DNA of 35,204 nt, taken from Acetobacteraceae bacterium. GTDB taxonomy: Bacteria > Pseudomonadota > Alphaproteobacteria > Acetobacterales > Acetobacteraceae. The position numbers and the translations under genes were made by a program. Shown here piece after piece: positions 8,887 to 34,503 of the stretch (its first letter is position 1; each line of letters opens with the position of its first letter). The stretch lies in contig JANXTL010000113.1 of assembly GCA_025352375.1 (NCBI GenBank), forward strand, positions 1 to 35,204, written 5' to 3'. A model generated the notes under the pieces. The model worked only from the letters and a program-made list of their open reading frames with translations. It was not told where the DNA came from and did not search any database.

Positions 8887-9786
8887 TCAGCCTCGGGCAG
8901 CCAGTGCCACACCGGTCAGTGTCATGGCCAAGGCAATGAGTTGCCGCGGCCCCAATGCTTCGCCTAATAGCAGCGTGGAACCGATCACGCCCACCATCGG
9001 GGATACCAGAACGGTTGTCGCGGCGGTGGACGCCGGCACCAGCTTCAGCGCCCGAAACCAGGCGAGATAAGCGACCGACAGCGGCAAGGACGAAATATAG
9101 GCGATCGAAGCCCAGCCGCCATGAGTGACGCCGCCCCAGACCGGATGTTCCCATTGCGCCAACACCAGAACGGGGATGGTGCCGATGGAGCCTTGCCAGG
9201 CGACGCTGGCGGCAGGCGGCATGCGCAGCGGGTGCTTTTTTGCCACGACCGTGCCCAGCCCGAACAGCCATGCCGCCGCGAACCCCATTGCCGCGCCCGG
9301 CAGCTTGTCCCAACTGGCATCCACCGATCCGACACCAACCATCAGCGCCACCCCACCGCAGCCCAGCAGGATGGCGGCGATACGGGGCGGCGTCAGGCGT
9401 TCCCCCAGCATCGGCCATGCCAGGATCGAGGCCCAGATCGGCAGCGTGTAGGTGATCGTCACGGCTTCGGATGCGCTGAGGGTGACCAGCGCCGCGGTCG
9501 TCAGCACGACGAACAACCCGTAGTTCAACATCGCGAAGACCAGCAACCAGAGCCATTGATCGCGCGGCGGCAGCAATTTTTCGCCCCGCCCGGCCGCGAG
9601 CGCGAAGGCGAATAGGCTGCCCGCGACGCCGCAAACCGTCCGCATGCTAAACGGCGGCAGCATCGTCAGCAAAAATTTAGACTGCGGCCAGGTAAGGCCC
9701 CAGGTGCAGGCGGTGAACAGCACAAGGCAGAGGCCCTCGGCGCGAGACCCAATGAATCGCGCCTTGCCCAAAGGGTTAGCGGACAC
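8887..9786 (-). CDS. EamA-family (drug/metabolite transporter) permease
   Basis: A 299-residue inner-membrane protein with about ten hydrophobic segments arranged as two EamA repeats (about 18-150 and 160-295). Family features are TACTWGLTWPQSKFLL at the start, SASEAVTITYTLPIWASILAWPMLGE closing repeat 1, and TTVLVSPMVGVIGSTLLLGE closing repeat 2. The start is GTG 9786, 5 nt after the lipoprotein stop, with no strong ribosome binding site, so translation is probably coupled. These transporters usually export small metabolites. The upstream aldolase-type gene suggests a sugar- or acid-related substrate, but this is inference. Confidence 0.88.
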   Translation of the reverse strand: MSANPLGKARFIGSRAEGLCLVLFTACTWGLTWPQSKFLLTMLPPFSMRTVCGVAGSLFAFALAAGRGEKLLPPRDQWLWLLVFAMLNYGLFVVLTTAALVTLSASEAVTITYTLPIWASILAWPMLGERLTPPRIAAILLGCGGVALMVGVGSVDASWDKLPGAAMGFAAAWLFGLGTVVAKKHPLRMPPAASVAWQGSIGTIPVLVLAQWEHPVWGGVTHGGWASIAYISSLPLSVAYLAWFRALKLVPASTAATTVLVSPMVGVIGSTLLLGEALGPRQLIALAMTLTGVALAARG

Positions 9787-9791
9787 GGGGA

Positions 9792-10196
9792 TCAGCGGAC
9801 GTAGACGCGCACCTGAACCGCCGTTACCGCGGCCTCTGAGCGAACCCCGAGGTGGACACGGGCGGCCGGCACCCGCTCGGCCATGATCGTGCGCATGACC
9901 TCGATCGCTGGCGGCGGCGCGCCGGCATCGAGCGACGGCGTCACCGCCACCACGTCGAATTGCACCGCGCCGTCGCGAGCCAGCGCCGCTCGAACCGCCA
10001 GGCGAAGCAGCTCTTTGTAGTTGGGGGCGGTGGAGGTGAAGTCGATCGTCACTAGCGGCGTGCGCGGGTCGTATTTCGCCGGTGCCACCGGGATTAACGG
10101 GATCGGCTCCGCCTCAGGCGACGGGGCAAAGGTTGTTTGATCGATAAGGGTGCAGCCCGCCAAAAACAGGCCTGCTAAAAACGGCGCGAATTTCAC
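9792..10196 (-). CDS. Putative lipoprotein of unknown function
   Basis: A 134-residue protein with a short signal sequence and a lipobox LFLAGC ending at Cys15, so it is probably lipidated and membrane-anchored. The mature part has a Pro-rich linker (about 24-45) and then an alpha/beta region with two similar segments, LVTIDFTSTAPNYKELLRLAV and a C-terminal VTAVQVRVYVR. It starts at GTG 10196, overlapping the aldolase stop codon by 3 nt (GTGA). I do not recognise a named family. The tight packing between the aldolase and the EamA transporter points to one operon. Confidence 0.75.
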   Translation of the reverse strand: MKFAPFLAGLFLAGCTLIDQTTFAPSPEAEPIPLIPVAPAKYDPRTPLVTIDFTSTAPNYKELLRLAVRAALARDGAVQFDVVAVTPSLDAGAPPPAIEVMRTIMAERVPAARVHLGVRSEAAVTAVQVRVYVR

Positions 10197-10954
10197 TGTC
10201 TGTACTCCGGAGCGGTCGCGTCGAGTTGGCGCTTGATACTGGCCAGATGCAGGGCAGGGGAGTCCCGCCCGCCTGCACGCCGCATCTGTTCCGCGGCGCG
10301 TTCGGCGAGTTCTTTCGGAATCGGCCGCACCGGCCGGCCCGAGGCACCCGCCAAACGCTGCACCTCCGCCGCCCGTTCCAGGTAATAAAGGTCGTCCCAG
10401 GCCTTGGCGATCGTCGGGCCGCAGACCATCGCACCGTGGTGGCGCATGAACAGGATGTCGGCATCGCCGATCGCCGAGGCGATGCGGTCGCCCTCAGTCT
10501 CATCCAGTGCCAGCCCGCCGTACTCCTCGTCCACCGCGATGCGGCCGTAGAATTTTAGCGACGACTGGCCGGCGAACAACAGCGGCGGGCCTTCCAACAT
10601 TGTTAGCGCCGTCGCGTTCGGCATATGGGTGTGGAACGCGGCCCTCGCCCGAGGCACCCGCATGTGCAGGCGGGCGTGAATATAAAATGCTGTATCTTCC
10701 GGCACCCCGTCGCCGGCGATCACCCGCCGGTTGAAGTCGCAGATGAGTAGGCGGGAGGCGGTGATCTCCCCGAACGACCAGCCGTCGGGGTTGACGAGAA
10801 AAAGATCGTCGCGGCCGGGCACCATGAAGGACAGGTGATTGCACACCCCCTCATGCAGCCCCATCGCGGCGGCGGTGCGGAAACAGGCAGCGAGGTCGAC
10901 TCGGGCCTGCCACACCTCGGGGCGGTCCAGATCGTTGTGACGGGAGGTGTTCAT
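10193..10954 (-). CDS. Class II aldolase/adducin-family protein
   Basis: A 253-residue protein of the class II aldolase/adducin fold. The zinc-binding HTHMPNATAL gives two His, and MRHHGAMVCG gives the later His. The N-terminal LAACFRTAAAMGLHEGVCNHLSF is the typical entry to the fold. Members include fuculose-phosphate aldolase, RibB-type epimerases and decarboxylases, and several non-aldolase enzymes. The frame extends upstream to 11047, but that part overlaps the divergent promoter region and does not look like the family, so ATG 10954 is chosen. It heads a three-gene operon with the lipoprotein and the EamA permease. Confidence 0.9.
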   Translation of the reverse strand: MNTSRHNDLDRPEVWQARVDLAACFRTAAAMGLHEGVCNHLSFMVPGRDDLFLVNPDGWSFGEITASRLLICDFNRRVIAGDGVPEDTAFYIHARLHMRVPRARAAFHTHMPNATALTMLEGPPLLFAGQSSLKFYGRIAVDEEYGGLALDETEGDRIASAIGDADILFMRHHGAMVCGPTIAKAWDDLYYLERAAEVQRLAGASGRPVRPIPKELAERAAEQMRRAGGRDSPALHLASIKRQLDATAPEYRQ

Positions 10955-11023
10955 GCGACGCAGGCTTGCAGGAAGTGGGCGGACGGGCAAGATGCAGCGG
11001 CAATCTTCATCGGAGTTTCCCCC

Positions 11024-20631: not shown

Positions 20632-22632
20632 ATGCACGCCCGCCGCACCGAGCAAACGCGACCCTTCCGTCATGCGCTTCGTGGCCGCGTCATCGCATTG
20701 CTGCTGCTGGCGGCCATTTTGCTCAATCCGGTTCTCGCGATCGCACAAGAGCGCGTTGCTCTGGTCGTGGGTGTCGGAGCCTACCAGAATGTCGGTAAGC
20801 TGGCGAACCCCCCGAACGATGCTCGGCTGATCGCCGAAGCCCTCAAGAAACTGTCATTCGATACCCAGGTCGTCGTCGATCCGACGTACGAGGATATGAA
20901 GCATGCGTTGCGCGATTTCGGGCTGAGACTGGCGCCGGCCAAGGTTGCGTTGTTTTTCTACGCTGGGCATGGGGTGCAGGTCGCGGGCCGGAACTATCTG
21001 TTGCCGGTCAATGCGAAGCTGGTGCGCGAGCAGGATCTCCGTTACGAAGCTTTCGACATGCAGGCGGTTTTGGAGGAAATGGACGGGCCCGGCCGCGTCA
21101 ATCTGATTTTCCTCGACGCCTGCCGGAACGATCCGCAATTGGCGCGTTCGTTGGCGATGCATATGGGAAGCCGATCCGCGCTGGTCGGTCGCGGCCTCGC
21201 CGGGATCGATACGAACCGGGCCAGCACTTTGATCGCCTTCGCCACCGCGCCCGGTGAAATCGCGGCCGACGGTTCGGGCGCCGATAGCCCCTTTTCGACC
21301 GCCTTGGCGCAGCACATCGGGACCGCGGGGTTGGATGTCCGGCAAATGCTCACCCGGGTCCGAGCAGATGTGAAGGCGGCGACTGCGAATGTGCAGGTGC
21401 CCTGGGTGAATGAAAGCCTGGATGCCGATTTCTATTTCGTGCCAGCCACCGCTCCGGCCGTTGCGCCGCCCGCCGTTCCGGCCGTTGTGCCGCCGACGCC
21501 TTCTGCCGCGTCGGGGGTGACGGCGGAGATGATGTTTTGGCAGTCGATCGAAACCAATGGCGGCGGGCCGGAGTTCCAGGCATATTTGCAGCAATTCCCG
21601 AATGGTACGTTCGCGCCCTTAGCGCGCGCCCGGTTGGCGGCGGTGGCGTCCGCGCGGCCGGTTCCGCTTCCGGCTGAAAAACTCGCGGTCGCGCCGCCCC
21701 AAGACTGCGATCGGCTGGCGCAGCCTTCCTACAATGCTCTCGGGCGTGGGCTAACGCTCGTCTCGGGCGTCGAGTTTGAAAAACTCGATACAAGCGCGGT
21801 GCTGAATGCCTGCGACCGCGCGATCGGGGACTTCCCGGATGAGGTTCGATTTCAGTTATGGCGTGGTCGCGCGTTGGTTAAACTCGGTCGTGACGCCGAG
21901 GCGGCAACATTGTTCCGCCGCTATTCCGATCAGGGTAACGCTGTGGCACAGGCCACCCTGGGCGTAATGTACAGCCTGGGTCGCGGTGTGCCCAACGACC
22001 CTGCGGAGGCCGTGCGTCTGTACCGATTGGCTGTTGATCGGGGGTTGCCGATGGCGCAAGCCAATTTGGCCGAGATGTACCAAATGGGACGGGGTGTATC
22101 GCAAGATTCAGACGAAGCAGCCAGGCTCTTACGCTTAGCCGCGGACCAGGGCTACGCACTTGCTCAGACCAGTCTCGGGTGGATGAATCAATACGGCAAA
22201 GGCATCCCAACAAACGCTGCCGAAGCGGTGCGTTGGTATCGGCTTGCCTCCGATCAAGGGTTTAGCAGGGGACAAGCAAGCCTGGCGACCATGTACTACC
22301 TGGGCAGTGGCGTAAGCCAAAACTACAACGAAGCCGCCCGCCTGTTTCGTATCGCCGCCGATCGAGGCGATTCCCAAGCTCAGAACGGCCTGGGTTTCAT
22401 GTACCGATATGGCAACGGTATGTCGCAAAACTACAACGAGGCCGTCCGCCTGTTCCGCCTCGCCGCCGACCAAGGTCTTGCCGATGGGCAGCTCAATCTT
22501 GGCTTCATGTATTACAATGGGTGGGGAGTCGCCGCCAACCGCGCCGAGGGCATACGCCTCGCGCGTCTCGCGGCAAGGCAGGGCAATGAGTTGGCCCAAA
22601 AGACTCTGCGCGATATCCACCAGACTTGGTAA
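20632..22632 (+). CDS. Exported caspase-fold protease with C-terminal Sel1 repeats
   Basis: A 666-residue protein. Residues 18-38 form a hydrophobic signal or anchor segment after an Arg-rich N-terminus. The peptidase C14 (p20) domain runs from about 40 to 270, with the catalytic His113 in YAGHG and Cys164 in LDACRNDP; both are present, so it should be active. A Pro/Ala/Val linker (272-295) leads to a middle region with a YLQQFPNGTFAPLARARL segment (about 318-336). Six Sel1-like TPR repeats of 36 residues follow (about 437-652). Sel1 repeats usually bind other proteins. CGGAGG lies upstream of ATG 20632. Neighbours give no clue to the substrate. Confidence 0.9.
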   Translation: MHARRTEQTRPFRHALRGRVIALLLLAAILLNPVLAIAQERVALVVGVGAYQNVGKLANPPNDARLIAEALKKLSFDTQVVVDPTYEDMKHALRDFGLRLAPAKVALFFYAGHGVQVAGRNYLLPVNAKLVREQDLRYEAFDMQAVLEEMDGPGRVNLIFLDACRNDPQLARSLAMHMGSRSALVGRGLAGIDTNRASTLIAFATAPGEIAADGSGADSPFSTALAQHIGTAGLDVRQMLTRVRADVKAATANVQVPWVNESLDADFYFVPATAPAVAPPAVPAVVPPTPSAASGVTAEMMFWQSIETNGGGPEFQAYLQQFPNGTFAPLARARLAAVASARPVPLPAEKLAVAPPQDCDRLAQPSYNALGRGLTLVSGVEFEKLDTSAVLNACDRAIGDFPDEVRFQLWRGRALVKLGRDAEAATLFRRYSDQGNAVAQATLGVMYSLGRGVPNDPAEAVRLYRLAVDRGLPMAQANLAEMYQMGRGVSQDSDEAARLLRLAADQGYALAQTSLGWMNQYGKGIPTNAAEAVRWYRLASDQGFSRGQASLATMYYLGSGVSQNYNEAARLFRIAADRGDSQAQNGLGFMYRYGNGMSQNYNEAVRLFRLAADQGLADGQLNLGFMYYNGWGVAANRAEGIRLARLAARQGNELAQKTLRDIHQTW

Positions 22633-22635
22633 GCC

Positions 22636-23964
22636 CTATTTCAGCAACCCAACCAGCGGATAAGCGTTCGCATCGATCTCGTTCACCGGTGCCGCGCCGA
22701 AGCGCAGTTCGATGGTCCGCAGGATCGATCCGAAGTCGTACGGCGTATGATCCACATACCCCGTCTTCACCGTCGGACCCACCGCGACCAGAGGCACCCG
22801 CGTGCCGGGGCCCCATTTGTCCCGCCGCGGAGGGGCCACATGATCCCAGGCACCGCCGTTCTCATCGTACGTGATAACAATCAGCATGTCCTTGTAAGCC
22901 GGGCTTTTTTGCAGCATCGCCACGACCTCGGCCAGATGCTTGTCGCCCGTCGCGATTTCGGCGTAGCCGGGGTGCTCGTTCAACGCGCCGATGGGTTTGT
23001 AGAACACGACCGGCGGCAGGGTCCCCGCCTGGGCATCGCGCACGAAATCCTTGTAATCCTTCAGATGTGCCTTCTGCGCCGGGGTGCCGGGTGCGAGGTT
23101 CTGGAAATACGCCAGGGGCTGATGGTGGAACTGGAAGGTCTCGCCCGGTTTGCCGGCCATCGCGTCGTCGTAGCCGCCCGAATACCAGGCCCAGCTCACG
23201 CCTTTCGCATCCAGCCGGTCGCCGATATGCGCCATGGTCTGCGGCGGCACCAGCGTGGTCGTGTCGGTCGCCTTGGGGTCGTGCAGATACACCGACTGCG
23301 TCGTGTTCACGGCGTGACCGTCCGGGGTTACCTGTCCATTCTCGATCATCGCGCCGTCCGGCCCAACCTGAGCGACCATGGACGCCGGCGCCTCGGGGAA
23401 GCGGAACGCGCAGGAACAAACTAGGAACGCATGGTTCAGGAACGACCCGCCGAATGCCGAGTGGAACGTCGCATCGCTCAGCGTGAACTGCTTCGCCAGC
23501 TTCCAAAGCTGCGTTTTCGACGTGTCGTAATAACCCATCGCCAGTCCGGCGCCGTTGGACACCGCGACGTAACGGTCCATGCGCCCGCCGTTGATCTGCA
23601 TCTGCTCATGGTAGAAGGCGTGGATCATGTCGCCGGTCTTGTCGGAGATCGCGACGTAACGCGCCAGGTCGAACGGTTTGTTCGGCAGATTGGCCGGGAA
23701 GCGCGGATCGACCGCCCTGATATGGCTGTCGACCGGTTGCGGCAGAGTCGTGTACGGCTTGCCGTCCGGCCCGATCTGGATGGCGCGATCGCCCGCGTTG
23801 GCCAGCCCATTGGCACCGGGGAAGCGGCCGAACATGCTGTCGAAACTGCGGTTCTCATCGAAGATTACCACGATGTGACCAATCTTGGCCAACGGGTCGG
23901 GCGCTTGCGCGAACGCGGCGGTGGAGGCCAAGAAAGCGGCGGCGAAGGCAAGCGGTTTTAGCAT
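22636..23964 (-). CDS. Secreted phosphoesterase (PF04185, acid phosphatase/phospholipase C type)
   Basis: A 442-residue exported enzyme of the phosphoesterase family, which includes AcpA acid phosphatases and bacterial phospholipases C. A signal peptide covers about 1-19 (ending AAFAQ). The metal site begins with HIVVIFDENRSFDSMFG, and the second metal cluster is in MLIVITYDENGGAWDHVAPP. ATG 23964 is chosen because the signal peptide starts there and GGGGA lies upstream; the frame stays open to 24081. Its stop is 3 nt from the convergent caspase gene. It is divergent from egtB across 106 nt. It probably scavenges phosphate or cleaves phospholipids in the periplasm or outside the cell. Confidence 0.9.
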   Translation of the reverse strand: MLKPLAFAAAFLASTAAFAQAPDPLAKIGHIVVIFDENRSFDSMFGRFPGANGLANAGDRAIQIGPDGKPYTTLPQPVDSHIRAVDPRFPANLPNKPFDLARYVAISDKTGDMIHAFYHEQMQINGGRMDRYVAVSNGAGLAMGYYDTSKTQLWKLAKQFTLSDATFHSAFGGSFLNHAFLVCSCAFRFPEAPASMVAQVGPDGAMIENGQVTPDGHAVNTTQSVYLHDPKATDTTTLVPPQTMAHIGDRLDAKGVSWAWYSGGYDDAMAGKPGETFQFHHQPLAYFQNLAPGTPAQKAHLKDYKDFVRDAQAGTLPPVVFYKPIGALNEHPGYAEIATGDKHLAEVVAMLQKSPAYKDMLIVITYDENGGAWDHVAPPRRDKWGPGTRVPLVAVGPTVKTGYVDHTPYDFGSILRTIELRFGAAPVNEIDANAYPLVGLLK

Positions 23965-24070
23965 CCCTGGTCCCCTGACAATGCGGTGCACCATAAAAGC
24001 ACGGCGCCCCCAATCAACGACAATCAGATGACACTTCCTTGCGTTGCAGGGCGATGCCATAGTCCTGGGG

Positions 24071-25234
24071 ATGCACGACACCGTACCATTGCCCGTGAGC
24101 CTCGCGTCCCGCTATGCTGCCGTCCGAGCGCATACCGAGGCTCTGGCCGCCGCCCTGACGCCCGAGGACCAGTGCGTCCAGTCGATGCCCGACGCCAGCC
24201 CCGCCAAGTGGCATCGCGCCCACACCACATGGTTCTTCGAACAGTTCATCCTGACCGAACACGTGCCGGAATACCGCGTGTTCGACGAGGATTTTCGCTT
24301 CCTGTTCAACTCATACTACGACGCCGTGGGCGCTCGTCACCCCCGTCCGATGCGCGGTCTGCTGACCCGCCCGGCGGCAGAACGGATCGCGGCCTATCGC
24401 GCGCATGTGGACGCGGCGATGGCGGCATCGCTGCACAAGGCGCCGACGGACCTGTTGGAACTGGGCCTGCATCACGAGCAGCAGCATCAGGAACTGCTGC
24501 TGACCGATATCCTGCACGCCTTCGCCCAGAACCCCCTGACGCCCGCGGCATTGCCGGGATGGCGGGAACCCGCGCCGGCACCCGGACCGGCCCAGTTCCT
24601 GCCGCGCCCCGGCGGCAGTGCCAGAATCGGCCACGCCGGGGATGGCTTCCATTTCGATAACGAGGTGCCGACACACGACGTGCTGCTGCGCGATTATGCC
24701 ATCGCCGACCGGCTGGTGCGCAACCGCGACTGGGCCGATTTTATCGCCGACGGCGGATATCGGTCCCCGTCGCTGTGGATGTCCGATGGCTGGGCGAGCG
24801 TGCAGGCACAAGGCTGGACCGCCCCGCTGCACTGGCGGGAGGACGGGATGCAGATGGGCCTGGGCGGGCTGGCGCCGATCGATCCCGACGCGCCGGTGCG
24901 TCATGTCTCCTGGTATGAGGCCGACGCCTTCGCCCGTTGGGCCGGTGCCCGTCTGCCCACCGAGTTCGAATGGGAAGCCGCCTGCCCGGACCTGCGGGAA
25001 GCAACGGGTTATGTCTGGCAATGGACCGACAGCGCCTATCGCCCGTACCCCGGCTATCGCCCTCCACCCGGCGCAGTCGGGGAATATAACGGCAAATTCA
25101 TGATCAACCAGATGGTACTCCGCGGCGGTTCCATGGCCACCCCGTCCGATCATGTTCGGTTGCCGTACCGTAACTTCTTCCATCCCGACAAGCGCTGGCA
25201 ATTCACCGGCCTGCGGCTGGCGCGGGACCTGTAA
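24071..25234 (+). CDS. egtB: Ergothioneine biosynthesis sulfoxide synthase EgtB
   Basis: A 387-residue non-heme iron enzyme that joins hercynine to cysteine or gamma-glutamylcysteine with oxygen. The N-terminal DinB-like domain carries the three-His iron site: His51 in WHRAH and His135/His139 in HHEQQHQE. The C-terminal part (from about 185) is an FGE-sulfatase fold with RHVSWYEADAFARWAGARLPTEFEWE and the closing RGGSMATPSDH...RNFFHPDKRWQFTGLRLARD. ATG 24071 follows TGGGG. Its stop shares one base with the ATG of egtD, so the pair is translationally coupled. Confidence 0.94.
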   Translation: MHDTVPLPVSLASRYAAVRAHTEALAAALTPEDQCVQSMPDASPAKWHRAHTTWFFEQFILTEHVPEYRVFDEDFRFLFNSYYDAVGARHPRPMRGLLTRPAAERIAAYRAHVDAAMAASLHKAPTDLLELGLHHEQQHQELLLTDILHAFAQNPLTPAALPGWREPAPAPGPAQFLPRPGGSARIGHAGDGFHFDNEVPTHDVLLRDYAIADRLVRNRDWADFIADGGYRSPSLWMSDGWASVQAQGWTAPLHWREDGMQMGLGGLAPIDPDAPVRHVSWYEADAFARWAGARLPTEFEWEAACPDLREATGYVWQWTDSAYRPYPGYRPPPGAVGEYNGKFMINQMVLRGGSMATPSDHVRLPYRNFFHPDKRWQFTGLRLARDL

Positions 25235-26157
25235 TGGACCCCGATGTCGCGCGCATGGCGCTGGAGGGGTTGCTCGCGCCCCGCAAAACGCTGCCGCCGT
25301 CGCTGTTTTACGATGAGGAAGGCTGCCGGCTGTTCTATCGCATCACCGATCTGCCGGAATATTACCTGACGCGTACCGAACGGGTGCTGCTGGCCGAGAT
25401 CGGTCCCGCGATCGCGGCCGCCGTCGGGCCGGGTGCGACCCTGGTCGAATATGGCGCGAGCCATGAGGAAAAGGCCTGTTTGCTCATGGCATTTCCTGGC
25501 GCCTTCGCCCGGTACATTCCGGTCGATGTCGCCGCCCCCGAACTCTCGCGGCTGCGGGAGCGTATGGCGGTCAGCCACCAAGCTGTGAACGTTGAGCCGG
25601 TCGTCGCCGATTTCATGCGTCCGATCGTGCTCGCCGGCTTGCCGCGCGACGGGCGGGTGCTTGGGTTCTTCCCAGGCTCCACCATCGGCAATCTGGAGCC
25701 CTCCGAGGCGATCTCGTTTCTGGTCAGAGCGCGGGAAACCCTGGGACCGCGTGCCCGTTTTCTGCTTGGCGCCGATCTCCGCAAATCCCCGTCGGTTTTG
25801 ATCCCCGCCTACGACGATGCCGAAGGCGTCACCGCCGCGTTCAATCGTAACCTGTTGGTGCGCCTCAACCGGGAGGCGGCGGCGAATTTCGACCTCATGG
25901 CGTTCCGCCACGAGGCGCGGTGGAACGATGCCGAAAGCCGCATCGAGATGCATTTGGTCAGCCTGCGCGACCAAAAAATCATCCTGGCCGGCGTCACCGT
26001 GCATTTTGCCGAGGGGGAGAGTATCCACACCGAAAACAGCTATAAGCATGCGCCCGATGCTCTGCTAACGCTGGCGCGGGACGCCGGATGGGCGCTGGAG
26101 CGCCAGTGGACGGACCCGGCGGGTCGGTTCGGGCACTTCCTGTTTGGGTTGCAATGA
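25234..26157 (+). CDS. egtD: L-histidine N-alpha-methyltransferase EgtD
   Basis: A 307-residue SAM-dependent enzyme that trimethylates histidine to hercynine, the EgtB substrate. Visible features are LPEYYLTRTE (residues 40-49, histidine-binding Tyr), the SAM-loop region VEYGASHEEKACLLM (71-85), YIPVDVA (94-100) and FFPGSTIGNLEPSEA (145-159). The SAM loop is a little unusual, with GASHEEK in place of the common GSGSSxK. No egtA, egtC or egtE is nearby; such genes are often missing or elsewhere in proteobacteria. Confidence 0.93.
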   Translation: MDPDVARMALEGLLAPRKTLPPSLFYDEEGCRLFYRITDLPEYYLTRTERVLLAEIGPAIAAAVGPGATLVEYGASHEEKACLLMAFPGAFARYIPVDVAAPELSRLRERMAVSHQAVNVEPVVADFMRPIVLAGLPRDGRVLGFFPGSTIGNLEPSEAISFLVRARETLGPRARFLLGADLRKSPSVLIPAYDDAEGVTAAFNRNLLVRLNREAAANFDLMAFRHEARWNDAESRIEMHLVSLRDQKIILAGVTVHFAEGESIHTENSYKHAPDALLTLARDAGWALERQWTDPAGRFGHFLFGLQ

Positions 26158-26201
26158 CTAATTTTGATATATTTTGGTCAAAATTTGTGTTTGATACATC
26201 C

Positions 26202-26978
26202 ATGCGATTGCCGATCCTCATCCTCCCGTGGTTGCTGTTGACGAGTGCCGCGCATGCGGCCGAGCCCGCGTCCCTCTCCTCGTCCCTCTCCTCATCCCTC
26301 TGCGAGCCGGCGATTGCCGCCGCCGAAAATGCCGGAAACCTGCCGCCGCGCTTGCTGAACGCCATCGCTTTGGTCGAGAGCGGGCGGTACGATGAGACCA
26401 CCAAAACCGTCCACCCCTGGCCCTGGACCATCAACGCGGAGGGGGAAGGGCATTATTACGCCTCCAAAGCCGACGCGATCGGCGCGGTGCGGGCGCTGCG
26501 AATGCGGGGTGTCCGGTCGATCGACGTGGGGTGCCTGCAAGTGAATTTGATGCATCATCCCGATGCCTTCGGCTCCCTGGACGAAGCGTTCGAGCCGAGC
26601 ATGAACGCGGCCTATGCGGCGCAGTTCCTGAACCGTTTGCACGCACCCGGGGACGATTGGGCGAAGGCCATCGGCGATTACCATTCCGCGACCCCGGCAT
26701 TCGGCGACCCATACCGGGCGATGGTGATACTGCGTTGGACCGGCGCGCACATCGCGGTTGCCAGTGCCGCTCGGCCGGCGACCTATAAATCGTTCCAGGC
26801 CCCCGCCACGGTGTACGGGGCCTTCGCACCGGTGTCGCAAATTTACGGGGCGTTCGCGGCCGCGGGGGCTACCCGCGCACCCGTTCGATCTCCGCCCCGC
26901 ACGCTGCTGGCTGCTGCGCAACAGCCTCGTATCCCCGGCTCAGGTGGTAGACCCAGTTTACCATCATCTCACCCTTAG
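26202..26978 (+). CDS. Lytic transglycosylase-like protein with a chimeric C-terminus
   Basis: A 258-residue exported protein. Residues 1-19 form a signal peptide (ending SAAHAA). The SLT-like domain (about 30-190) has the catalytic Glu in [11 protein letters not shown], then [15 protein letters not shown] (the usual G-x-x-Q-x-N block) and [10 protein letters not shown]. It would cleave glycan strands of peptidoglycan in the periplasm. ATG 26202 is chosen for its signal peptide; an earlier ATG at 26154 overlaps egtD. After the signal peptide a 12-bp direct repeat encodes [10 protein letters not shown]. The last ~36 residues are encoded by the antisense strand of a murA remnant, and the stop codon straddles the edge of a 113-bp MITE-like element, so the native C-terminus has probably been replaced. 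Confidence 0.82.
26271..26303 (+). repeat. 12-bp direct repeat encoding Ser-Leu-Ser-Ser
   Basis: TCCCTCTCCTCG (26271-26282) is followed by TCCCTCTCCTCA (26283-26294) and a partial third unit, TCCCTCTGC. The unit is four codons, so changes in copy number would keep the frame. It lies just after the predicted signal peptide cleavage site of the lytic transglycosylase. Confidence 0.75.
26869..26978 (-). pseudogene. murA: murA 3' remnant (last ~36 codons)
   Basis: Read on the minus strand this segment encodes [19 protein letters not shown]...[12 protein letters not shown] and a stop codon. By eye, 25 of 35 residues match the C-terminus of the intact MurA at 29619-30881 ([19 protein letters not shown]...[12 protein letters not shown]), including the stop position and with no gaps. 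The remnant ends abruptly at the TTAG where the 113-bp element begins. It is therefore a diverged second murA, or an old duplicate, cut by the element and now serving as the antisense 3' end of the lytic transglycosylase frame. Confidence 0.85.
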
Positions 26979-27090
26979 ACCATGATCGTTTGAGGTTGCA
27001 CGCGATATCGGCGTTGAATCATGGTCTAAGCCTTTGTTTGAGAGGGTGATTCACGCCCGAGGTTGAAGTCAACCTCAGGCGATCACGCTC
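26978..27090 (-). mobile_element. 113-bp MITE-like palindromic element, copy A (inverted)
   Basis: Inverted relative to copies B (31878-31990) and C (34379-34491); all three are exactly 113 bp and about 95% alike. The ends are imperfect inverted repeats of about 23 bp: GAGCGTGATCGCCTGAGGTT versus GACCATGATCGTTTGAGGTT. The copy is flanked by TA on the left and GA on the right, so one target TA has probably mutated. There is no coding capacity. TA flanks with terminal inverted repeats suggest mobilisation by an IS630/Tc1-type transposase; this is inference. Confidence 0.8.
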
Positions 27091-27150: not shown

Positions 27151-28845
27151 TTACGGCAACCGGCTTTTGGCCGCGGCTACGCCCGCCGCGACCGTAGCGG
27201 GGAACGTCACCAAGGGTGGTGCGACATCGTGTGTCCGCAATATTTGCCGTATCGGGTCGCGCACACCGGCCAGATAAACGGCGGCCCCCCGCCGTTGCGC
27301 ATTGGTCGCGAACCCTGCCAGCGTCGCGGCGGCTGTTGAATCGAGGACCGAAATCGCGGAACAGTCGATCACATAGGCGCGTGGATGCTGGCCGATATTG
27401 TCCAGCGCCGCCCCCACATTGGCCGCGGCACCGAAGAAAAACGCGCCGGAGATGCGATACACCACGACATCCGGATCGGTTGCTTGCGCCGCGTCATAGG
27501 GCTTGCGGCCCCCGGAGCGCACGTCGTCCGCCACGTCTTCGGTGGTCGCGTCCTCGATCTCGACAGACTGCGCCATGCGGTGCAGGAACAGCAGCACCCC
27601 AATGGCGAAGCCCACCAGAATGCCTTCGGTCAGATCGCGAAACACCACCAGCAGGAATGTGGACAGTAGTACCACGGCGTCCCCGCGGGACGCGCGAAGG
27701 AGTACCGCGAACTGGTCCTTTTCCACCATGTTCCAGGCCACCACGGCCAGAACGCCGGCCAAGGCGGGCAGCGGGATGTAGCTGGCCAGCGGTGCCGCCA
27801 CCACCATGAACAGCAGCAGAAACACCGCGTGCAGCATGCCGGCAACCGGCCCTTGCGCGCCCGCCCGCACATTGGTCGCGGTGCGCGCGATTGTGCCGGT
27901 AACGCAAAATCCGCCGAACAAAGCGGAGGCCATGTTGGCGACCCCCTGCCCAACAAGCTCGCAGTTGGACCGGTGCCGCCGCCCCGACATGCTGTCGGCG
28001 ACCACGGCGGACAGCAGGCTTTCGATCGCACCAAGCAAGGCAAAGGACAACGCGCTCGGCAGAACGTCCTCGATCTTATCGACAGACAAGTTTGGCAGCG
28101 TCGGCGCGGGCAAGGACTGCGGAATGCCGCCGAAGCGCGTGCCGATGGTATCGACGGGCAGGGCGAACAGCCAGGCCAGCAAGGCCGTTGCGCCCACGGC
28201 GATCAGCATGCCCGGCCAATGCGGCCGCCAGCGCCGTGTGGCCAGGATAATGCCGATTGACACCGCGGCCAGCGCCACCGCCGCGAGGTTGGCGGTGGGC
28301 AAGGCGTGACCCAACGCCTCCAGCTTGGGGATGATCTCGCCGGGTTCCTTGCCCGGCAGGCGCAGGCCCAACAATTCCTTGATCTGGCTCGCGAAGATGA
28401 TGACGGCGATGCCGGCTGTGAAACCCACGGTGACGGGATAGGGGATGTATTTGATATAGGTGCCAAGCCGCAGAAACCCGGCCAACAGCAGAATCAGGCC
28501 AGATATAAGCGTGGCCAGGATCAGCCCGTCGATCCCGTGCGTTTCCACCGTCGCCAGCACCAATACGATGAACGCGCCGGCGGGGCCGCCAACCTGGAAG
28601 CGGCTGCCGCCAAGGGCGGACACGAAAAAGCCGCCAACAATGGCCGTGTACAGCCCCTTGTCTGGCCCGACGCCAGAGGCAATGGCGATGGCCATCGACA
28701 GCGGCAGGGCAACGATAGCGACCGTCAGACCGGCAACGATATCGGCGCGCAACCCGGTAAAACCATAGCCCTCCCGCAGGATTGTCACCAGTTTCGGGGT
28801 GTAGAGTTCGGCAAAACTAGGCTCAGGCGTTTTCCTTGCCATCAT
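27151..28845 (-). CDS. SulP-family anion transporter with STAS domain
   Basis: A 564-residue inner-membrane transporter. The N-terminal SulP core has about 12-14 membrane segments, with LRADIVAGLTVAIVALPLSMA (about residue 30), ALGGSRFQVGGPAGAFIVLV and CELVGQGVANMASALFGGFCVTGTIARTA. The cytoplasmic STAS domain is at about 445-560 (VVYRISGAFFFGAAANV, YVIDCSAISVLDSTAAATL). Substrates in this family include sulfate, bicarbonate and dicarboxylates; none can be assigned here. ATG 28845 (or 28842) lies inside the 3' end of the XRE regulator gene, a 23-nt overlap, so both are translated from one mRNA. Confidence 0.92.
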   Translation of the reverse strand: MMARKTPEPSFAELYTPKLVTILREGYGFTGLRADIVAGLTVAIVALPLSMAIAIASGVGPDKGLYTAIVGGFFVSALGGSRFQVGGPAGAFIVLVLATVETHGIDGLILATLISGLILLLAGFLRLGTYIKYIPYPVTVGFTAGIAVIIFASQIKELLGLRLPGKEPGEIIPKLEALGHALPTANLAAVALAAVSIGIILATRRWRPHWPGMLIAVGATALLAWLFALPVDTIGTRFGGIPQSLPAPTLPNLSVDKIEDVLPSALSFALLGAIESLLSAVVADSMSGRRHRSNCELVGQGVANMASALFGGFCVTGTIARTATNVRAGAQGPVAGMLHAVFLLLFMVVAAPLASYIPLPALAGVLAVVAWNMVEKDQFAVLLRASRGDAVVLLSTFLLVVFRDLTEGILVGFAIGVLLFLHRMAQSVEIEDATTEDVADDVRSGGRKPYDAAQATDPDVVVYRISGAFFFGAAANVGAALDNIGQHPRAYVIDCSAISVLDSTAAATLAGFATNAQRRGAAVYLAGVRDPIRQILRTHDVAPPLVTFPATVAAGVAAAKSRLP

Positions 28846-29110
28846 CGGAACCAACCCTTTTCGCTGCCCGCTTCAATCGCACGCCGCGCCCGTCACCCAC
28901 GCTTCTGACGTTGTCGCCGATAAGTTCGACCCCAGCGTCGTCGAAGGCGGCGACAACCTTGGTGAGCGATTCGACTACGCCGCGCACCGTCCCCTCGCTC
29001 CCTTCCATCCGCTGGACGGTCGGCAGCGACACGCCAGCCATCCGGGCGAACTGGCGCTGGTCGATACCGAGCAACGCACGCGCGGCACGCATTTGGGCGG
29101 CGGTGATCAT
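28823..29110 (-). CDS. XRE-family helix-turn-helix regulator
   Basis: A 95-residue protein with an HTH_3 domain at about 5-60: MRAARALLGIDQRQFARMAG, then VSLPTVQRMEGSEGTVRG, the scaffold and recognition helices. The C-terminal tail is basic. It is the first gene of a two-gene unit with the SulP transporter, which it overlaps by 23 nt, so it probably controls its own operon. Palindromes just upstream (29158-29205) are candidate operators. Confidence 0.88.
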   Translation of the reverse strand: MITAAQMRAARALLGIDQRQFARMAGVSLPTVQRMEGSEGTVRGVVESLTKVVAAFDDAGVELIGDNVRSVGDGRGVRLKRAAKRVGSDDGKENA

Positions 29111-29205: not shown

Positions 29206-29618
29206 ATGTCGCTGGGCAGTAGGAATCGGCAGGCATGGTGGCCATTTGAAACAAGGCGCAAGATGCACGGCTGAAATGCCGATAAACGACAGGGTCGGCC
29301 GTGCCCGCGCCGGTAAAGGGGCGATCGGTTACCCCGGTTGCCGAAATCCGATTGCCAGAAGGGTCGCTAAGGCCCTGTCCAAAGATAATCGAATCGATCA
29401 TGCGGATCGGACAGGGCCTAAGCTCTTGTTTTGAACGGCAACTTTGCCGGCGTGCTGACGCACTTATTTGCCAGCGTTGCCTAACGTAAGAAATTCGGTC
29501 GAGCCGCTCCTTCGATACGCTGCGATGGAGGTGGCCAACGAGACATTCGATCCGATAATCGTAGTCCCGCGTTTCGTCTTCTCGACGGTTAGCGACGTCA
29601 TCATGCTTAGGCCGTTGC
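29206..29618. other. 413-nt gap between the XRE promoter and murA 3' end
   Basis: I see no convincing gene. Open frames of about 60-80 codons on both strands lack ribosome binding sites and recognisable content. The stretch holds a 48-bp inverted-repeat mini-element at 29371-29418. GC content looks slightly lower than in the flanking genes, and the region may contain decayed sequence. Confidence 0.5.
29371..29418. mobile_element. 48-bp inverted-repeat mini-element with TAA flanks
   Basis: GGCCCTGTCC (29371-29380) is perfectly repeated in inverse as GGACAGGGCC (29409-29418). TAA lies directly outside each end (29368-29370 and 29419-29421), as a 3-bp target duplication would. The 28-bp centre has no coding potential. 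A TNA duplication and GC-rich 10-bp ends resemble IS5-family (IS427-group) termini, so this may be a minimal MITE or the collapsed remains of an IS. It could also be a simple transcription terminator stem. Confidence 0.5.
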
Positions 29619-30881
29619 CTACCCCCCAATCCGCTCAATGTCCGCCCCGCATGCCGCCAGTTTCCGCTCCACCGCCTCATACCCCCGGTCCAGGTGGTAA
29701 ACCCGGTTCACCATAGTCTCACCCTTAGCCGCCAATCCCGCCAAAATCAGGGACAGAGAAGCCCGCAGATCGCTCGCCATCACCGGCGCACCGGACAGCG
29801 AGGGCACCCCGCGCACGATCGCCGAGGACCCGTGCACATTGATCCGCGCGCCCATCCGGTTCAACTCGGGAACATGCATGAATCGGTTCTCGAAAATGGT
29901 CTCGGTGACCATGGACGCGCCCTCGGCGACCGAGAGCATCGCCATGAACTGTGCCTGCATGTCGGTCGGAAAGCCCGGGTAAGGCTCCGTCATCACGTCC
30001 GCGCCGTGTAGCCCATTCAGCCGGCGCACCATCACGCCGCCGTCGGCCTCGGTCACTTCGACCCCGGACTCGCGCATAACGCGGATTGTAGCCCCTAAAT
30101 GCTCCAGCCGCGCATGCCGCAAGAACACCGACCCGCCGGAGATGGCGGCGGCGCAAGCATAGCTCCCGGTCTCGATGCGATCCGGAATAATGGAGTGATC
30201 GGCGCCATGCAGGGCCGGCACGCCCTCAATGGTCAGCGTATCGCTGCCGATGCCCTCAATCTGGGCGCCCATCGCGACCAGACACACAGCTAAATCGCCG
30301 ATCTCCGGCTCCCGCGCGGCATTTTCCAAAACAGTGCGGCCTTCGGCCAGGGTTGCGGCCATCAACAGGTTCTCGGTGGCGCCGACGGAGACAAACGGAA
30401 ACACAATCCTCGCCCCGCGCAGCCGCCCGTCCACCCGCCCGTCGATATACCCGCCTTGCAGGTCGAAGCGGGCGCCCATCTGTTCCAGCCCTTTGATGTG
30501 CAGGTCAACCGGCCGAGCCCCGATTTCGCAGCCGCCGGGCAGCGACACCCGAGCCTCCCCCACGCGCGCCATTAACGGTCCCAGCACCAGGAAGGACGCG
30601 CGCATCTGGCGGACGATATCGTAGGGGGCCTCGGTATTGGTGATCGACCCGCCCAGCGACAACACGCGGCCTTCGTTGTCCTGCTTGTCGACGGCGATGC
30701 CGTGCTGCGCCAACAAGGAGCCCATCGTCTTGATGTCCGCCAGCCGAGGCACATTGGAGAGAATAAGCCGTTGCTCGGTCAGCAGCCCGGCGGCCATCAG
30801 CGGCAGCGCTGCGTTCTTCGCCCCGCCGATGGGGATTTCGCCGGACAAGGGCTTGCCGCCGCGGATACGGATACGGTCCAT
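29619..30881 (-). CDS. murA: UDP-N-acetylglucosamine 1-carboxyvinyltransferase
   Basis: A 420-residue cytoplasmic enzyme catalysing the first committed step of peptidoglycan synthesis: enolpyruvyl transfer from PEP to UDP-GlcNAc. It has the substrate-binding Lys22-Asn23 in [10 protein letters not shown], the catalytic Cys118 in [16 protein letters not shown] (Cys115 in E. coli, the fosfomycin target), and the late [22 protein letters not shown] block. The frame is open far upstream, but ATG 30881 follows GAGGA and starts the standard MDRIRIRGG sequence. It begins 4 nt after the dcd stop, so dcd-murA form one unit. A diverged fragment of a second murA lies at 26869-26978. Confidence 0.96.
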
Positions 30882-30885
30882 TCGC

Positions 30886-31440
30886 TTACATCCTCGGCAG
30901 CGCGGTGCCGCGCTGGCCCATGTATTTGCCCGCCTTGTCGGCGTAGCTGGTTTCGCAGGCCTCATTCCCTTGCAGAAAGAGGAACTGGCAGATGCCCTCA
31001 TTCGCGTAGATGCGGGCGGGCAGGGGGGTGGTGTTGCTGATTTCGATGGTGACCTGCCCCTCCCATTCCGGTTCCAGGGGGGTGACGTTGACGATGATCC
31101 CGCAGCGCGCATAAGTCGATTTGCCGAGGCAGACCACCAGAATGTCGCGCGGGATGCGGAAATACTCGATGGTGTGGCCCAGCGCGAAGCTGTTCGGCGG
31201 GATGATGCAGGTATCCACCTGGCGGTCCACGAAGCTGGTCGGGGCGAACGCCTTGGGGTCGATCGTCGCGGAGTCGATGTTGGTGAAAATCTTGAACTCG
31301 TCGGCGATGCGGGCATCGTAGCCGTAGCTCGACAGGCCGTAGCTGATCACCCCGTCGCGCTTCTGCGCTTCCACAAAGGGTTCGATCATGCCGTGACCTT
31401 GCGCCATTTGGCGGATCCAGCGGTCGGACATCACGGGCAT
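30886..31440 (-). CDS. dcd: dCTP deaminase
   Basis: A 184-residue enzyme that deaminates dCTP to dUTP for thymidylate synthesis. Family segments are [80 protein letters not shown] (Ser/Arg active-site loop) and [20 protein letters not shown] (catalytic Glu region). ATG 31440 is supported by AGGAG about 12 nt upstream and by family N-termini; ATG 31431 is an alternative. It is divergent from the opgC pseudogene and upstream of murA. Confidence 0.94.
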
Positions 31441-31877
31441 GGGGTTCCGAATTCTCCTGCGTAAGCGGTCCCTGTAGCGCACCGCGCCGTGCCGCCGCAA
31501 ACGCGTTGTAACGCATGCCGGCGGCCCTGGTCAGACGTTACGCGCCATCTTGCGCGGGAACCGACATGACCCAAGCCTCGATCCCTGCCCGCCCAGCCCG
31601 AGACACCCGCGTCGACATCGTGCGCGGGTGACTGCAACTGACCATCTTTGCCTCCCACGCTGCGGGGACGTGGATTGGGTACTGGCTAATTCACCGCGCC
31701 TGGGGGCTATCCGATAGCTCCGAGCAGTTCGTATTCCTGTCGAGGTTGATGTTGGGCAGCGTGTTCGCGCTGAAAACCGCGCGGCAGGGCTGGGTCACGG
31801 CCAGCCTGGACATGCTGGTCCGGACCTGGCGGCTGTACCGCACCAATACGATCGTGTTCGCGCTGTTCGGCGCTTTA

Positions 31878-31990
31878 GAGCGTGATCGCCTGAGGTTGAC
31901 TTCAACCTCGGGCGTGAATCACCCTCTCAAACAAAGACTTAGACCATGATCCAACGCCGAGATCGCATGCAACCTCAAGCGATCATGGTC
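31878..31990 (+). mobile_element. 113-bp MITE-like palindromic element, copy B, inside opgC
   Basis: Same length as copies A and C; about 6 of 113 positions differ from copy C. It is flanked by TA on both sides (31876-31877 and 31991-31992), as expected for a TA target duplication. The right end AGACCATGATC...GATCATGGTC forms its own stem, and the left half GTGATCGCCTGAGGTTGA/TCAACCTCGGGCGTGAATCAC forms another, so the RNA would fold into two hairpins. It interrupts the opgC reading frame. Confidence 0.85.
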
Positions 31991-32568
31991 TAGCCTTCGC
32001 CGCTGGCCAATCCGGGCTGTTGCCTGGAGAAACCGAGCGGCTGGGATGGAGCTATGCGATGGACCACCCCGTGCTGGGCGAGCTGGCGGGCATGACCACC
32101 TTCTACCAGCCAAACTATATGGGCATTCTCCCGGTCTTCCTTTGGTGCATGCTAATACTGCCGGTCTTCGCGGCGCTGGAGGCTCGGATCGGCGATTGGG
32201 CCCTCGCGTTGCCGCTGGCCCTGTACGCCGCCGCGCATCTGCTGGGACTGGCGCCGCCGGTACTGGGGACCGGCACGGAAGGCGGGTTCAATCCCTTCGC
32301 GTGACAAATCCTGTTCCTGGTCGGGGCCTGGCTCGGCCGGCGCTCCCTGTTGTATGGGCAAGCTTTGCCGCGCTGGCACTGGCTGACGGTCCTGTCAGTG
32401 GCGATCGAGGCGATCGGGCTGCTGCTGCGGCTGTCCTGGTTCGGGTTCCTGCCCTTCCCGCTGCCGATCCCGGAAACGGATGCAGTTTTCGGTAAGGATT
32501 TGCTGGCGCTGCCCCGGGTGCTGCACGCCTTCGCGCTGTCCTGGCTGGTCGCCATCGCCGTGCCGCGC

Positions 32569-32620
32569 GATGCGCGCTGGATGCACACCGCAGCGATGCG
32601 CGCTGGATGCACACCGCGGC
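32569..32620 (+). repeat. 26-bp tandem duplication in the opgC pseudogene
   Basis: The unit starting GATGCGCGCTGGATGCACAC and ending CGCAGC (32569-32594) is repeated at 32595-32620 with one base different, followed by a partial third start, GATGCGCTGG. As 26 is not a multiple of 3, it shifts the reading frame; removing one unit restores the frame into the C-terminal membrane segments. Confidence 0.9.
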
Positions 32621-32894
32621 GATGCGCTGGCTCGCGGCGGCGGGGCGCCACAGCTTGCAGGTTTTCTGCCTCGGCCTGTTCCTGTCCTGGGGTATGACGG
32701 CGGCGTTCCGCTTGTGGCCGGGGGCGATGTGGTGGGTGGATCCGCTGGGGATGGCGGTGGGCTCCGCGATTTTGCTGCGCTTCGCGCTTTGGCTGGACCG
32801 TGGGCGGAAGCCGGCAGTGCGGGGTGGTGTTGCCGTGCGTGCGGCTTAACCCGGCGCCTCCCGACCGGATTTGCGGTCATCACGAAAACGAGAC

Positions 32895-33034: not shown

Positions 33035-34327
33035 ATGCCGCTAGGCGATGGAATTCGGCGCAATGCCGCCACGATGTCACAACAGGAACGCAACCATGTT
33101 CGCGACGCGTTCGTCGCGCTCGACACGGTCAAAACCTATCCGGACGGGGTCACCTTCTGGGACAAGCAGGAGCAGATCCATAAGGCCGCTCACGCTGACG
33201 GCCAGGATGTCCATGCGGGCCCAGCCTTCATCCCCTGGCATCGTGAGCTGATCAACCGGCTGGAAGCGCTGCTGCGGCAGGTCGATCCCCTGGTTTCGCT
33301 GCCATACTGGGACTGGATGACCGATCCGCGCAGTACGGCCGGTGGTCGGGCGAACCTGATGACCGCCCAGTTCATGGGCAGCGCGTCGGGCAACGCCGGC
33401 CCGCCGCTCGCGGCGTTCGAATCGACCGAGGGCGGCGGCCATACCCTGATCTGGCGCAGCATGGCGGCCGGCGCGCCGCCGGTTTCCGCCGACGCGGCAA
33501 TCGTCGGCGGCACGGCGGCGCTGCCCCATGCGCAGCAATTCCCCGCCTTTCAGGGTTTGCTGCAACCGGCCCACAACAGCGCGCATGGTTACATCGGCGG
33601 CACCATTTCGCAGCAACATTTCTCGTTCCACGATCCGATGGTATTCTTGTTGCACAGCAACATGGACCGGCTATGGGCGATGTGGCAAAGCGACCCCGCG
33701 CAGGTCTGGAGGCTCGACCCGGCGCAGGTTTATGGCAACAACGCAAGCTCGCCGACAATTGTTGGAAATCTGGAACCGTGGGCTGGACAAACGCCGCCTT
33801 TGTTGCGGCCCTGGGCCCCGCCCGACAATCAGCAGCAGGCGAAGAATTCCAAGGACCTCACGGTCGTCGTTCCACACCTGTACGACAGCACGGTAAACGA
33901 GCAGAGAAATTGGCGCTGGTGCTCCAAATGTCAGGGCATGCATTTCGCCGGGCATCCCACGAAAGGCGTGTGCCCGGCGGGCGGGCCGCATATCGAGGCC
34001 GGCAGCGGTAACTATACGATCGTGCAAAATACCCCTGCCTACCCCGGCCAAACCAATTGGCGCTGGTGCAGTAAATGCGAGGGGATGCATTTCTCGGGCA
34101 ATGCGAGCCAGGGACCCTGTCCCGCCGGCGGCCAGCACATCCACACCGCCAGCGGCAACTACCATCTCCGGAGTAACCTCCCGGCCGGTGCCGGCCAGAG
34201 CAATTGGCGCTGGTGCCACAAATGCCAAGGGCTGTATTTCGCGGGGAATGCCACCCAAGGCGTTTGCCCGGGCGGAGGCCAACACGACCATACCGGGAGC
34301 GGCGATTACCATTTGTTTTCGGTTTAG
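33035..34327 (+). CDS. Tyrosinase (type-3 copper) fused to three Cys-rich repeats
   Basis: A 430-residue protein. The tyrosinase domain (about 1-235) has CuA ligands His49 or His53, His60 and His69 (VHAGPAFIPWHRELINRLE), and CuB ligands His180, His184 and His207 (PAHNSAHG, FHDPMVFLLHSNMDRLWAMW). It would oxidise phenols to catechols and quinones. After a Pro-rich linker (about 245-270) come three repeats, each exactly 49 residues apart (from 293, 342 and 391), of the form WRWC-x-KC-x-G-x2-F...G-x-CP-x-GG-x-H...SG-x-Y. The Cys/His pattern suggests a metal-binding or carbohydrate/surface-binding module. No signal peptide or Tat motif is seen, so export would need a partner. GGGAGG precedes ATG 33035. 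Confidence 0.9.
   Translation: MPLGDGIRRNAATMSQQERNHVRDAFVALDTVKTYPDGVTFWDKQEQIHKAAHADGQDVHAGPAFIPWHRELINRLEALLRQVDPLVSLPYWDWMTDPRSTAGGRANLMTAQFMGSASGNAGPPLAAFESTEGGGHTLIWRSMAAGAPPVSADAAIVGGTAALPHAQQFPAFQGLLQPAHNSAHGYIGGTISQQHFSFHDPMVFLLHSNMDRLWAMWQSDPAQVWRLDPAQVYGNNASSPTIVGNLEPWAGQTPPLLRPWAPPDNQQQAKNSKDLTVVVPHLYDSTVNEQRNWRWCSKCQGMHFAGHPTKGVCPAGGPHIEAGSGNYTIVQNTPAYPGQTNWRWCSKCEGMHFSGNASQGPCPAGGQHIHTASGNYHLRSNLPAGAGQSNWRWCHKCQGLYFAGNATQGVCPGGGQHDHTGSGDYHLFSV
33911..34327 (+). repeat. Three 147-bp in-frame repeats in the tyrosinase gene
   Basis: Units start at 33911, 34058 and 34205, each opening with TGGCGCTGGTGC and spaced exactly 147 bp; the third unit is slightly shorter at the C-terminus. 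DNA similarity is high at the start of each unit (AATTGGCGCTGGTGC is identical in all three) and lower in the linkers, which indicates older duplications kept by selection on the Cys/Trp/His core. Confidence 0.85.
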
Positions 34328-34378
34328 CGAGCCGGTCGAATTTGGGAGAACGATGGCCGAAGCCGCGGCGCCGCGCTA

Positions 34379-34491
34379 GGGCGTGATCGCCTGAGGTTGA
34401 CTTCAACCTCGGGCGTGAATCACCCTCTCAAACAAAGGCTTAGACCATGATCGAACGCCGAGATCGCGTGCAAACTCAAACGATCATGGTC
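34379..34491 (+). mobile_element. 113-bp MITE-like palindromic element, copy C
   Basis: Same orientation as copy B, TA on both sides (34377-34378 and 34492-34493). The element ends 12 nt before the ATG of the vWA-like gene, so it makes up most of that gene's leader and may provide or block its promoter. It follows the tyrosinase stop by 51 nt, where its stems could also act as a transcription terminator or 3' mRNA stabiliser. Confidence 0.85.
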
Positions 34492-34503
34492 TAGGGTGGC
34501 ACC

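Follow-up and report, generated by a model that had tools for sequence, protein, structure and literature searches.

A second murA 3' end at the gene's ancestral terminus underlies the antisense-derived C-terminus of a lytic transglycosylase gene in an Acetobacteraceae genome

The window analysed here, i.e. the whole stretch of 35,204 nucleotides, contains a lytic transglycosylase gene (LT) whose 3' end lies antisense to a short second copy of the murA 3' end, hereafter the remnant. The intact murA gene is located further to the right, and between the old murA end and the intact gene lies a block of about 2.64 kb, composed of the repeat element A, a SulP-family transporter gene, a small helix-turn-helix (HTH) gene, the repeat element B and 135 bases. 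The coordinates and the evidence on which each feature was recognised are collected in Table 1.

Table 1. Features of the LT-murA region, in coordinates of the window.
Feature	Position	Strand	Evidence
Lytic transglycosylase (SLT domain) with antisense-derived C-terminal extension	26202..26978	+	PF01464, E 2.5e-5; relatives in 51/59 genomes
36-codon LT extension and TAG stop, antisense to murA remnant	26868..26978	+	Translation; in relatives the LT frame ends with the murA stop or shortly before it
murA remnant (3' end, where murA ended ancestrally)	26869..26977	-	76.4% identity over 110 bp, E 1.9e-16; position via G009, G016, G003
Element A, miniature transposon-like palindromic repeat of 113 bp	26978..27090		Left flank TA (26976-26977), right flank GA in place of TA; fold z -4.96
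SulP-family transporter with STAS domain	27151..28854	-	PF00916, E 2.6e-84; PF01740
Small helix-turn-helix protein paired with SulP	28823..29110	-	PF01381 above cut-off, PF13560 just below; near SulP also in G022, G012, G016
Element B, 112-bp repeat of a second family	29370..29481		TA on both sides; 9 copies compared; fold z -3.90 for 29366-29478
Stretch directly after the intact murA stop	29484..29618		One 26-base match elsewhere
Intact murA	29619..30881	-	Complete frame without internal stop; PF00275, E 1.4e-106

When the window was compared with itself, positions 26,869-26,978 aligned with 29,619-29,728, both on the minus strand, over 110 bases without a gap at 76.4% identity (E = 1.9e-16), and the local score of 58 compares with a maximum of 21 for random stretches of the window against murA. 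The original prediction of a murA-derived, ungapped 3' end is thus borne out at the DNA level, with 25 of the 35 residues identical and a stop position common to both copies. Counting the stop, the last 36 codons of the two copies differ by 26 nucleotides and 10 codon products. The murA similarity of the remnant stops at the TA of 26,976-26,977, directly before element A, in agreement with the earlier claim that the remnant is cut where this element begins. A continuation of murA beyond the element was rejected, the sequence to its right having a score of 8 that 65% of shuffles matched. A MurA search of the genome matched only the intact gene and the remnant, and found no further full or partial murA.

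The two tails were also compared with those of 26 of the 32 other genomes of the genus; G019 yielded no frame by motif, and for five genomes a tail was either not usable or not included. Among the differences between the two copies are 11 sites at which the remnant carries a base absent from all 26 relatives; the intact tail carries no such base. These private bases are spread evenly over the three codon positions (3, 4 and 4), as would fit a stretch freed from murA selection, and the remnant is thus probably under relaxed murA constraint.

LT was matched in 51 of 59 genomes, this one included. In a survey of 29 LT loci from other genomes, with at most 1.5 kb of flank each and several of them cut by contig ends, murA was found directly convergent with LT at three loci (G009, G016 and G003). 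The stops of the two genes overlap by four bases (TTAA) in G009, and the LT stop is located 7 bases before the murA stop in G016 and 15 bases before it in G003. The window is collinear with G009 over 22,634-26,976, 29,631-31,873 and 31,997-32,800, and the pieces that flank the block overlap by 96 bases in G009, where both tail copies align to the one murA end; the same overlap, with two tail copies on one murA end, is found in G016 and G003. Since LT and murA are convergent neighbours in three relatives and both tails fall on a single murA end, the remnant lies where murA's own end belongs. The proposal that it came from a second MurA at another locus is therefore not upheld, the three relatives placing it at the ancestral murA terminus. 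Gene order in these genomes shows an ancestral arrangement in which LT and murA were convergent neighbours with nearly touching stops. In G001, the two genes share a contig, on which an interval of 2 kb with two large ORFs separates them. This insertion (about 8,990-11,000 in locus L095, contig C66) is an independent one; one of its ORFs resembles, by eye, an AAA-type ATPase, and no copy of the murA tail was seen within the 2 kb.

Relatives of the SulP transporter at 61-77% identity occur in three of the 32 other genomes of the genus (G022, G016 and G012), all other matches being at 39% or less. The HTH gene is close to SulP in these three genomes too, and in each of them the pair is on a different contig from murA. 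Neither a second copy of the SulP block nor a vehicle for it was found. For the 135 bases that follow the intact murA stop, a search of 299 genomes of the family, in which two candidates were scored per genome, gave one 26-base match outside this genome.

Element A is abundant, a 23-base seed with up to three mismatches having 318 matches in the genome and 0 in the backward control, and copies are found at or near several contig ends. Twenty-three copies were aligned, 20 taken from the genome listing and three from the window (26,978-27,090, about 31,874-31,996 and about 34,367-34,498). TA is present on the left of 23/23 copies and on the right of 22/23, the exception being the copy at the remnant, whose right flank reads GCTCGAGG. 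Flanked by TA and present in many near-identical copies, element A is a probable TA-targeting miniature transposable element. Near-identical copies (93-98%) exist in G003 and more diverged ones in other members of the genus; the copy at 31,874-31,996 is absent from G009. The RUP of pneumococcus is a TA-targeting miniature element (PMC2229807), and element A is similar to RUP, in the features given for it in that source, by its length of about 110 bp, its palindromic structure, its high copy number and the TA at both ends. Unlike RUP as described there, the element A copy at the remnant is without TA on one side. The TA on the left of this copy is that of the murA sequence itself. Since the left TA comes from murA and murA similarity is missing on the right, element A most likely jumped into a murA end that was already redundant, and what lay beyond it would later have been lost or rearranged. 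The missing right TA may be due to a single base change or to recombination with another copy; the flank is one base off TA, so that a plain point mutation would also account for it. Element B is likewise palindromic, with TA on both sides in 9/9 copies, and related copies are found in G016, G013 and G022.

Translation confirmed the prediction that the last 36 residues of LT are antisense to murA: they are read from 26,868-26,975, and the TAG at 26,976-26,978 is located at the junction with the element. The orthologues in G009, G016 and G003 stop earlier and have no extension, and the new stop lies, by chance, in the antisense frame of the neighbour. From a conserved motif to the end, LT has 149 residues here and the compared frames have 111-129, except for those of loci L040, L170 and L171 (147-163). 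When the C-terminus was compared with 31 other transglycosylase frames from 37 loci (six loci without a motif frame were left out and three loci duplicate others), none had the extension residues beyond chance, in line with what had been predicted; the lowest shuffle fraction, 0.03, is at chance level because 31 frames were compared. Many of the compared transglycosylases end in YGAFA-like repeats (region 26,790-26,870 of the window and its counterparts in relatives).

The distance from the conserved GCGTTCGC to the murA stop is 11 bases here versus 12 in G009, and the TTAA tetramer that holds both stops in G009 corresponds to CTAC here. A shift by one base, combined with the loss of the tetramer that held both stops, accounts for the read-through of LT. 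In 24 of 27 murA genes this antisense frame runs for at least 29 codons without a stop, so that selection is not needed to obtain the extension; long open antisense frames are common in such GC-rich genes and do not point to selection. It is very improbable that the 36-residue tail, a segment that arose on the opposite strand of another cell-wall gene, is translated and now useful to LT. Stop-codon mutation is described as able to create convergent overlapping genes (PMC2174442). LT is similar to the overlaps described in that source, its stop having been lost and its reading continuing in antisense into the convergent neighbour, and the four-base TTAA overlap of the G009 pair is of the type given there for convergent genes. 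In contrast to those overlaps, the neighbour's end is here a presumably decayed spare copy, so that the LT overlap no longer lies on a working gene.

The isolated murA tail was then considered at a wider scale. Among 395 genomes sampled from the order and searched with the last 39 residues of MurA, 390 gave a match and 11 gave two. In the ten other two-match genomes the second match is within a frame of 429 aa or more, and an isolated short tail was found in this genome only, in a search that strongly decayed tails may escape. With the whole MurA, 31 of 33 genomes of the genus gave a match and two did not; this genome alone has a remnant away from a contig end, the short match in G004 being at a contig end.

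Some integrative elements carry the 3' end of their target gene and duplicate it. The present locus is similar to them in that the inserted DNA lies between direct repeats of a gene 3' end, the gene itself being intact. It differs in that neither of the two recognised genes of the block (SulP and HTH) is an integrase, and in that none of the other genomes in the sample of 395 was found to have a murA tail of this kind, for which reason the murA 3' end was rejected as a general insertion target. Furthermore, the two murA-end repeats differ by 24%, an age unlike that of a recent insertion. A literature search found no published account of this locus.

Taken together, these data lead us to propose, with a probability of roughly 0.6, that the block came between the convergent LT and murA and left a spare murA end, followed by decay, entry of element A and loss of the LT stop. 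The interposed arrangement is seen directly, and the event that brought the SulP/HTH block would also have copied the murA end over at least its last 36 codons, one end being left beside LT and the gene keeping a complete end. The stranded end, free of murA constraint, would have decayed. Element A would then have jumped into a TA within it, the sequence beyond the element being lost or rearranged, and LT, its old stop lost, would be read through the usually open frame as far as the TAG at the element junction, a statement about the reading frame that implies no function.

The phylogenetic position of the two tails bears on the origin of the duplicated end. For the body of murA, this genome is sister to G009, whereas the intact tail, when the remnant is omitted, prefers G007/G028 over G009 by 7.1 lnL (s.e. 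5.5), and the remnant prefers G016 when the intact tail is omitted. Import of a tail would fit these preferences better than duplication in place. DNA of a related lineage that carried the SulP and HTH genes together with a murA 3' end of its own would in that case have recombined near the murA 3' end, so that the remnant would be the displaced native tail and the tail of the intact gene would be foreign. A site test over 27 genomes, with the split at the last 110 bases and a G009/G028 mosaic, points the same way (p = 2.8e-5). However, the standard error is large relative to the 7.1 lnL, and the same test gives an equal signal for G009's own tail (2.5e-5, with G032) and 2.7e-4 for that of G001; since these signals are similar, the split point is not peculiar to this genome. 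The joint trees pair the remnant with the intact tail (FastTree support 0.88), which is also its best placement, the one beside G016 being just 1.0 lnL worse. In addition, the block and the murA surroundings of G028, G007 and G014 have in common no similarity longer than chance-length matches, and we consider such an import possible but rather unlikely.

The rearrangement initially put forward, in which recombination between copies of element A joined the tail of a second murA to the SulP block, is more doubtful still. The 318 seed matches would offer ample substrate, and the copy at the remnant, alone of 23 without TA on one side, looks as a rearranged copy could. A repeat-mediated step is to that extent possible, but the element sits at an ordinary TA on the murA side and has neither TA nor murA sequence on the other, and a recombinant of two normal copies would retain the right TA. 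The other half of a second murA, expected elsewhere, was not found in the genome, and with the remnant at the ancestral terminus a separate locus is not needed. A misjoin of the draft contig at element A could be suspected in an assembly of 355 contigs (completeness 98.34) where several contig ends are at or near copies of the element. Nevertheless, 26 of 108 bases distinguish the remnant from the intact tail, so that both murA tails exist, the LT-remnant join is free of repeat and collinearity with G009 holds on either side, which makes an assembly error very improbable.

Under the preferred reading, in which the block stranded a spare murA end, the locus is an instructive but ordinary case of genome reshuffling. 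It shows how the antisense strand of a neighbour can supply a protein tail, and each step of the route is ordinary: two convergent genes, a block that leaves a spare gene end behind, decay of that end, entry of a miniature transposon and loss of a stop. Most of these steps can be seen when relatives are compared. Elsewhere in the window, internal direct repeats of 70-82% identity are present at 33,902-34,312, and a 50-bp direct repeat of 86% identity is found at 22,318-22,475.
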